DNA of 34,763 nt from an uncultured Alphaproteobacteria bacterium (GTDB lineage: Bacteria; Pseudomonadota; Alphaproteobacteria; CAAGCB01; CAG-977). The translations under genes were made by a program, and so were the position numbers. The stretch's first letter is position 1. Each line of letters opens with the position of its first letter. Below the pieces are notes generated by a model, which made no database searches, was not told the DNA's origin, and was given only the letters and a program-made list of their open reading frames with translations. Where the stretch lies: NCBI GenBank assembly GCA_944392845.1, contig CALXYE010000012.1, positions 1-34,763 on the forward strand. Direction: 5' to 3'. Shown here piece by piece: positions 4,243 to 6,560 of the stretch.

Positions 4243-4331
4243 ATGCCCGAAATTTACATATAAAAGATTAACTTTGCGGATAATCTGTGTTTATATACTT
4301 TACGCCTTTTTTCATTTGGGGAGAAAATCGG

Positions 4332-5060
4332 GTGAATGCGTCAAACGTCATAGAATTCGACGGCGTCGGCCTGCGCTACGGGCAAGGACCCGAGGTGCTC
4401 AAAGACGTTACGTTTTCCCTGCCTTCGGGATCGTTTTATTTCCTGACGGGGGAAAGCGGCGCGGGCAAAAGCTCCTTGTTAAGCCTGATGTACCTGTCCC
4501 GACGCCCGACGCGGGGGCACATCCGCATGTTCGGAAAATCAATCCAAAATTTGCCGCGCGCGGCTCTGCCCGAAATCAGGGGAAAAATCGGCGTCGTCTT
4601 TCAGGATTTCCGCCTGCTGGATCATTTGTCCGCTTTGGACAACGTCGCTTTACCCCTGAGAATCGCAGGCTTGTCCGAAAACGAAGTGAAAAAGCGCGTC
4701 GTCGAACTGCTGACCTGGACGGGGTTGGCGTCGCATCTGAATGCCAGGCCGCCGACGCTGTCGGGCGGACAAAAGCAAAGCGTCGCCATCGCGCGCGCCG
4801 TTATCAACCGTCCCCAAATATTGGTTGCGGACGAACCGACGGGAAATATGGACGACAGGACGGCAGCGCGGCTGTTGCGTTTGTTCGTCGAGCTGAACCG
4901 CCGCGGAACGACGGTCATCATCGCGACGCACAACGAAGGCCTGATCCGCACTTTCCCCTATCCCAGAATGCACCTTTCGAACGGCAGGCTGACCCTTTAT
5001 CCCGCAGGATATGCGCCGAATGTTTCAACCCGTCTGCAACGGGAGGAACGGCGTGTTTAG
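4332..5060 (+). CDS. ftsE: Cell division ATP-binding protein FtsE
   Basis: FtsE is the ATPase of the FtsEX complex, which couples the divisome to activation of cell-wall hydrolases. From the GTG at 4332 it has 242 residues. Walker A is GESGAGKSS (40-48), the Q-loop is VVFQDF (88-93), the signature is LSGGQ (143-147), Walker B leads into ADEPTGN (166-172), and the switch histidine is in IIATHN. The GTG is preferred over an upstream in-frame codon at 4287 because GGGGAG lies 8 nt before it and the extra residues look random. The residues after LSGGQ read KQSVAIARA, where E. coli FtsE has a QRV-type sequence; ATP-site residues are otherwise intact. The TAG stop lies inside the start of ftsX, so the two are coupled. 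Confidence 0.93.
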   Translation: MNASNVIEFDGVGLRYGQGPEVLKDVTFSLPSGSFYFLTGESGAGKSSLLSLMYLSRRPTRGHIRMFGKSIQNLPRAALPEIRGKIGVVFQDFRLLDHLSALDNVALPLRIAGLSENEVKKRVVELLTWTGLASHLNARPPTLSGGQKQSVAIARAVINRPQILVADEPTGNMDDRTAARLLRLFVELNRRGTTVIIATHNEGLIRTFPYPRMHLSNGRLTLYPAGYAPNVSTRLQREERRV

Positions 5061-5862
5061 AAAAACAAGCGATCTGCCTTTTACGACGGACACTTCGGCA
5101 TGGTTTTTGCCGTGGATGGTTATGCTGATGGTGTTTTTTGCGGGATTGACGACCGCGGGGGCGCTGTCTTTGAATTCCATGCTGGGACGGTGGAGCCGTT
5201 CCATATCGGGTTCGCTGACCGTCCAGATCCTGCCTCTGGAAGAAAACGGACGCATCAACATTAAAAAAACGCAATTGGAAACGGACGAAGTTCTGTCGGT
5301 TCTTCGCAAAACGGAAGGCGTCGCTTCTGCGAACGTCCTGACCGACAGCCAGTTGAAAGACTTGCTGAGGCCGTGGCTGGGCGATTCTTTTTTGCTTGAC
5401 GACCTGCCCATGCCGCGATTGATTGACGTTCGGCTGATCCCCGATACGCACGTTGATTTGGATAAACTGAAAACCGTGCTGGCCGAACGGGCGCCGAACG
5501 CTTCGCTTGACGTGCACAAGCTGTGGCTCGGAAAGCTGGTGAAGCTGGCTCAGACGCTAAGCCTTTTGGCTTCGACGCTTTTGGCTTTGGTTATCGCAAC
5601 GACGTCCGTCATCGTAATTTATGTAACCTGTTCGGGGCTTGCCGTTCACCGCCCCATTATTGAATTGTTGCATTTGATCGGCGCGCATGACGATTACATT
5701 GCCCGCCAGTACGCCCGCCGCATCGCTCTCCTGTCTTTTTTGGGCGCCGCCGTCGGTTTCGGCTTTGTATTGCCCGTCATCTTCATGGTATCGTCTTTGG
5801 CCGAAGGAATACGGGGCGGGTTGCTTTCCGAAGCGGAATTCGACGTATGGTCATGGAGGTAG
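5053..5862 (+). CDS. ftsX: Cell division protein FtsX, interrupted by an in-frame UAG before the last membrane helix
   Basis: FtsX is the membrane partner of FtsE. The GTG at 5053 has GGGAGG at 5041-5046 and overlaps the ftsE stop by 8 bp. Visible parts are TM1 (about 17-38), a periplasmic domain (about 40-165), TM2 (near 175-200) and TM3 (near 222-245). Translation stops at TAG 5860-5862 after 269 residues. In the same frame the sequence continues with LSLIPVFAVILSTLTAYW and a basic end TVQKTLRRLP before TGA at 5947-5949. That extension is a typical FtsX fourth helix and tail, giving 298 codons in all. The next gene starts at GTG 5946, overlapping that TGA by 4 bp. The gene is therefore either newly broken, read through, or misread in the assembly. 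TAG acts as an ordinary stop for ftsE and rimI in this window. Confidence 0.88.
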   Translation: MFRKTSDLPFTTDTSAWFLPWMVMLMVFFAGLTTAGALSLNSMLGRWSRSISGSLTVQILPLEENGRINIKKTQLETDEVLSVLRKTEGVASANVLTDSQLKDLLRPWLGDSFLLDDLPMPRLIDVRLIPDTHVDLDKLKTVLAERAPNASLDVHKLWLGKLVKLAQTLSLLASTLLALVIATTSVIVIYVTCSGLAVHRPIIELLHLIGAHDDYIARQYARRIALLSFLGAAVGFGFVLPVIFMVSSLAEGIRGGLLSEAEFDVWSWR

Positions 5863-5945
5863 CTTTCCCTGATTCCCGTTTTCGCCGTCATTTTATCGAC
5901 TCTGACGGCATATTGGACGGTACAAAAGACTTTAAGGCGACTGCC

Positions 5946-6560
5946 GTGAAAATCAAATCGAAAAAATTCGCCGTCGCAGGAATCCTCGCCGCCCTGATAT
6001 GGGGCGCAGGGCTGTTTTCTTTTGCAAGCCGCGTCCGTTCAACGGCAAAAGACGATGAAACGCGGACGGACGCCATCATTGCCTTAACGGGCGGAACGGA
6101 TCGCGTCGCCACGGGTACCGAACTGTTAAAACGGGGAAAAGCCGAAAAACTGTTGATTTCGGGAGTCAACCGCGCCGTCGATTGGAACCTGTTGTCCCGA
6201 ACAATCGAAACATTGCCCGACGACATTGCCGACAAAATCACTCTGGGACATGTTGCCGCCGACACTTGGGAAAACGCTCTGGAAAGCAGGAATTGGATGG
6301 AAAAAAACGGTTTTTCGTCGTTGCGCCTGGTCACCGCCGCCTATCACATGCCCCGAAGTTTATCGGAATTCAAAAACGCCATGCCTGACGCGACGATCAT
6401 TCCTCATCCCGTTTTTCCCGCAAATTTCAAGCATGACGAATGGTGGAAATATCCCGGAACGGCGGCTTTGCTGATTTCCGAATACAACAAATTCCTGCTG
6501 GTGTCCCTGCGGCACCTGTTGCCCTTCTTTCCCGACAAAACCATTTCTGAAGACGAGTGA
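5946..6560 (+). CDS. DUF218 (YdcF/ElyC/SanA-like) membrane-anchored protein
   Basis: A 204-residue protein from the GTG at 5946. It has an N-terminal membrane anchor (about 9-28) and then a DUF218 domain: DAIIALTGGTDRVATG near 42-57, LLISGVN near 69-75, a conserved ADTWENA segment, and RLVTAAYHMPRS further on. Family members are linked to envelope functions such as ElyC in peptidoglycan and polyprenyl-carrier maintenance, but the biochemical activity is uncertain. I prefer this start over an earlier ATG at 5847 because translation from 5847 would read, in another frame, through the DNA that encodes FtsX helix 4. The GTG also makes a 4-bp overlap with the natural ftsX stop. ftsX-DUF218-plsC is a recurring alphaproteobacterial order. 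Confidence 0.85.
   Translation: MKIKSKKFAVAGILAALIWGAGLFSFASRVRSTAKDDETRTDAIIALTGGTDRVATGTELLKRGKAEKLLISGVNRAVDWNLLSRTIETLPDDIADKITLGHVAADTWENALESRNWMEKNGFSSLRLVTAAYHMPRSLSEFKNAMPDATIIPHPVFPANFKHDEWWKYPGTAALLISEYNKFLLVSLRHLLPFFPDKTISEDE

Follow-up and report, generated by a model that had tools for sequence, protein, structure and literature searches.

Organization of the ftsEX locus

The window, by which we mean the whole stretch of 34,763 nucleotides that was analysed, carries the genes ftsE, ftsX and a DUF218 gene in this order on one strand (Table 1). The open reading frame of ftsE (4287-5057) matches the ABC ATPase family PF00005 at 112.7 bits, and its segment 4332-5021 is conserved in the relative G002. 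It stands immediately upstream of ftsX and overlaps it. The ftsX frame is interrupted by a TAG, after which the same frame stays open until a TGA that overlaps the start of the DUF218 gene. This arrangement had been described in a reading of the sequence alone (the sequence-only reading), and all its coordinates, from the GTG start of ftsX to the GTGA overlap, were confirmed.

Table 1. Features of the ftsEX-DUF218 locus and other private stops of the same genome (locus positions are those of the window).
Feature	Location	Strand	Remarks
ftsE, ABC ATPase	4332..5060	+	GTG 4332 taken as start; stop TAG 5058-5060; overlaps ftsX
ftsX, standard-code product	5053..5862	+	GTG 5053; 269 codons; hydrophobic segments 1-3, then TAG 5860-5862 (codon 270)
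ftsX, adjacent private codons	5857..5862	+	AGG (Arg 269) and TAG (270)
ftsX, in-frame continuation	5863..5949	+	28 codons after the TAG; conserved fourth helix and basic tail; TGA 5947-5949
DUF218 gene	5946..6560	+	GTG 5946; GTGA overlap with the distal ftsX stop TGA; PF02698 at 57.3 bits
PPDK, private stop TAA	L115 (G000:C22) 763		no stop in the best matches of 11/11 same-family relatives
GlgB, private stop TAA	L112 (G000:C19) 5411-5413		5452-base contig, about 40 bases from its end; no stop in 8/8 covering same-family relatives
Flavodoxin, private stop TAG	L154 (G000:C42) 1224		C-terminal part after the stop conserved; no stop in 9/9 covering same-family relatives

Identity and membrane segments of FtsX

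A family profile of 12 rows, in which the frame of the window was read through, was searched against the PDB (E up to 0.01) and matched FtsX only, with four distinct sequences counted and a best match of E 4.4e-7 over columns 77-295. The solved FtsX chains matched are 8ymc, 8hd0, 8i6o and 8tzj, which places the protein among homologs of the FtsX permease core. Scores on curated family models are below their cut-offs: the read-through frame reaches 56.4 of 255 bits on TIGR00439 (E 2.6e-15), where an intact relative (L010) reaches 55.0 bits, and the ftsX frame reaches 23.5 of 25.5 bits on PF02687.

FtsX, the partner of FtsE in the type VII ABC system FtsEX of cell division, possesses four membrane helices, TM1 to TM4, as described in an excerpt of PMC11139282. 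Hydropathy scanning of the window's frame identified three segments before the TAG (22-40, 171-189 and 226-244) and a fourth at or after it, in two overlapping versions (263-281 and 273-291). The likeness to known FtsX thus consists of the ftsE-ftsX gene order, three plus one hydrophobic segments and the profile matches to solved chains; the difference is that the standard-code product does not contain TM4. The loss of the fourth helix proposed in the sequence-only reading holds for that product, both by hydropathy and by alignment to the C-termini of relatives; a single chain with all four helices would require either that the TAG is an error or that it is read through.

Codon 270 and its surroundings in relatives

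Matches to FtsX at E up to 0.001 were obtained in 82 of the 96 genomes searched, including that of the window. A stop inside the match occurs in the window's genome alone and in none of the 81 matching relatives, 72 of which (manual count) have matches extending beyond codon 270; nine weaker matches end at or before this codon and do not cover the site. All 11 genomes of the same family match to residue 297 and read straight through. Their loci come from rumen samples of sheep, water buffalo and roe deer, from horse faeces and from other assemblies. No relative of the window's FtsX was present in the viral contigs scanned, and no second genome of the window's species was present in the genome contigs scanned, a set that may omit such records.

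Loci were retrieved for 29 of the 81 relatives and 27 were aligned (L027 and L028 were left out of the column counts). All 27 extend past codon 269 and through the fourth helix, an outcome that answers the homolog comparison proposed in the sequence-only reading. Codon 270 is a sense codon in all 11 same-family relatives and never the TGG or CAG considered in the sequence-only reading: ten possess Leu (TTG 4, CTG 4, CTT 1, TTA 1) and one possesses Ala (GCC). Over the 27 aligned relatives, Leu occurs in 15 and Trp or Gln in none, at odds with the Trp or Gln ancestor that had been suggested. Among the genomes searched, the TAG is thus private to that of the window, and Leu was most likely the ancestral residue.

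The continuation after the TAG matches the C-terminus of all 27 aligned relatives, 11 of them from the same family, with no internal gap. Against the 11 same-family relatives, pN/pS is 0.17-0.45 after the stop, a noisy value that rests on only 27 codons, and 0.24-0.34 before it. Alignment and pN/pS together rule out a chance open frame. The two ranges overlap, and the stop must therefore have arisen recently, be an artefact or be subject to readthrough.

The codon next to the stop is also odd. Codon 269 encodes Arg here, compared with a hydrophobic or small residue in 11 of 11 same-family relatives, and of the 298 columns just two, codons 269 and 270, combine a charged or polar residue or a stop in this genome with a hydrophobic or small residue in every one of the 11 relatives, a residue class picked after Arg 269 was known. 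The same count is 5 in G003, 3 in G005, 1 each in G009, G006 and G001, and 0 in the six other relatives.

Private stops elsewhere in the genome

The genome of the window was compared with that of G002 over 913,885 of its 1,881,272 bases (window included) and 1,169,814 bases of G002. Raw in-frame stops within alignments number 22 here and 38 in G002, many of them located in frames that run past a gene or lie on its opposite strand. Flank filters of three widths left 5, 4 and 7 stops here and 3, 5 and 6 in G002; with shadow frames removed, there are 5 stops in 364 genes (79,100 well-flanked codons) here and 3 in 344 genes (76,123 well-flanked codons) in G002. By the number of stops alone the two genomes cannot be told apart; they differ in the frames that carry them.

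Four private stops were retained in this genome, in FtsX, pyruvate phosphate dikinase (PPDK), glycogen branching enzyme (GlgB) and a flavodoxin. The frames of FtsX, PPDK and GlgB are backed by named families, while the NCBIfam matches of the flavodoxin are below cut-off (92.8 of 198 bits). In PPDK, the stop replaces E281 and is followed by Tyr in place of D282, in a stretch otherwise alike in both genomes; this second odd residue was judged against G002 alone, the other relatives not being aligned there. The GlgB stop lies close to a contig end, where coverage is often thin. Among the retained stops other than that of ftsX, the one in the flavodoxin is a TAG and again private, and those in PPDK and GlgB are TAA; all of these come from the comparison of about half of the genome. 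A fifth private stop was dropped as the matches in G010, G008 and G007 also contain stops; it lies in a gene that we take to be deacetylase/YibQ-like and for which NCBIfam gave no match.

In the reciprocal scan of G002, three stops in two frames were retained by the filters and none survived inspection. Two fall among the first 36 codons of a frame of 914 residues, beneath an opposite-strand frame that runs uninterrupted for 627 codons and has its own homologue, and one falls in a 145-residue frame, beneath an uninterrupted opposite-strand frame of 123 codons. Four further G002 sites, seen with looser filters only, also lie under uninterrupted opposite-strand frames. Such an overlying frame alone does not settle a case, because long ones overlie sites in this genome too, for example 927 codons over the PPDK site.

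Frameshift candidates are not in excess, with 2 here (one of them L116) and 5 in G002, counts in which a single candidate was inspected. The inspected candidate, on contig C49, was rejected, an M50-like peptidase and a TatA-like protein being two separate genes here (L161, 5520-6351, in G000). In G002 the same two form one uninterrupted minus-strand frame of 299 amino acids (L209, G002:C11:20001-40000); both names were assigned by eye.

Origin of the interruption

Three causes had been put forward in the sequence-only reading, namely a recent nonsense mutation, readthrough and an assembly error. The first and the last still stand, and readthrough has gained no positive support. We consider that ftsX is an otherwise ordinary gene whose TAG is probably a private lesion and not a programmed signal, and most likely a local consensus error of the draft assembly that would have hit codons 269 and 270 together, an explanation to which we give an even chance as a whole. 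The cause would then lie in assembly or sequencing rather than in the organism, which would make a normal four-helix FtsX. Local consensus errors are suggested because the odd codons adjoin and because a single draft genome has several isolated stops in its conserved genes. On the other side, the site is far from the ends of its 34.8 kb contig, the contrast with G002 depends on filtering and inspection, there is no surplus of frameshift candidates, five of the relatives have odd columns by the count used for codons 269 and 270, and the four cases are few, while genuine recent pseudogenes would have the same appearance. The observation of the stop is correct, and the biology is ordinary. When a conserved gene in a draft assembly shows one in-frame stop, the private-stop background of that same genome should be taken into account.

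A true recent nonsense mutation in the strain or population appears less likely than a consensus error but almost as likely, and is a serious, if tentative, second candidate. FtsX would then be made without its fourth helix, with impairment or loss of FtsEX and a weaker translational coupling to the DUF218 gene. A single stop in a frame that is not further decayed, with a constraint-like pattern downstream, agrees with this explanation, as do the other private stops of the genome. An alphaproteobacterium can also do without these proteins, FtsE and FtsX being listed as absent from Brucella ovis in an excerpt of PMC2821768. It accounts less well for the stop adjoining a second odd codon, with a similar doublet in PPDK; in our judgement, four conserved genes with one stop each and no other break noticed would also be unusual for pseudogenes, though not impossible.

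Leaky or programmed readthrough of the UAG, giving a small amount of full-length FtsX, is unlikely. In its favour, the frame, the helix and the distal stop are all kept after the TAG, but an intact frame is equally expected after a recent lesion or with an error. Excerpts of PMC7918605 argue that bacteria widely carry in-frame stops on which purifying selection acts and which may be read through; the same excerpts assume that functional recoding is not involved in the vast majority of these cases. The ftsX case resembles those cases in its single in-frame stop and conserved downstream frame. It differs in that the study, as excerpted, centred on stops common to orthologues of at least two species, which limits artefacts, whereas the ftsX TAG is shared with none of the relatives searched, including 0 of 11 in the same family. 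Release factor RF1 is intact (prfA match of 511.9 bits with no internal stop). The amber suppressor tRNA raised in the sequence-only reading was looked for, and no CUA anticodon was found among the 37 tRNAs detected, an incomplete list from which Trp and Ile tRNAs are also missing (36 were typed by ARAGORN; one copy, cut by a contig end, was read as GTC by eye). No paper that deals with premature or in-frame stops of metagenome-assembled genomes was found in the literature searched.

That FtsX is split, with the fourth helix made as a separate 26-residue peptide, is very improbable. The sequence GGAGG (5855-5859) directly precedes the TAG and is separated by 9 bases from an in-frame CTG at 5869, which might suggest a new initiation site. 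However, no in-frame ATG, GTG or TTG follows the stop, CTG is a rare start codon, and there would be no GGAGG without the private codon 269; no same-family relative possesses GGAGG at this position, or the stop. The broader proposal that cell separation is tuned through the level of four-helix FtsX, either by a leaky UAG peculiar to this lineage or by a split gene with a Shine-Dalgarno-like motif at the stop, is doubtful and has little probability; in its favour are only the intact frame and, for the split gene, that motif. Were the TAG real and read through, it would provide a simple test case of amber leakiness in a division protein.

A general or clade-wide reassignment of UAG to sense, to which only the in-frame TAG itself points, had been judged unlikely at the outset and has a negligible probability: it is ruled out by the intact RF1 and by TAG at the ends of 28 of 295 scored conserved genes (TAA 171, TGA 96), UAG being a working stop codon in this genome, and the private stops elsewhere include TAA.

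Start of the DUF218 gene

In 10 of the 11 same-family loci an ATG or GTG likewise occupies the -1 offset, and because of this the start of the DUF218 gene within the overlap is, on comparison of these loci, ancestral. The DUF218 frame is open upstream of its GTG for 85 codons here (window 5691-5945), compared with 34 in 7 of the 11 relatives and 9, 38, 46 and 142 in the remaining four. Two ATG codons, at 5847 and 5853, could act as alternative DUF218 starts if translation ends at TAG 5860.
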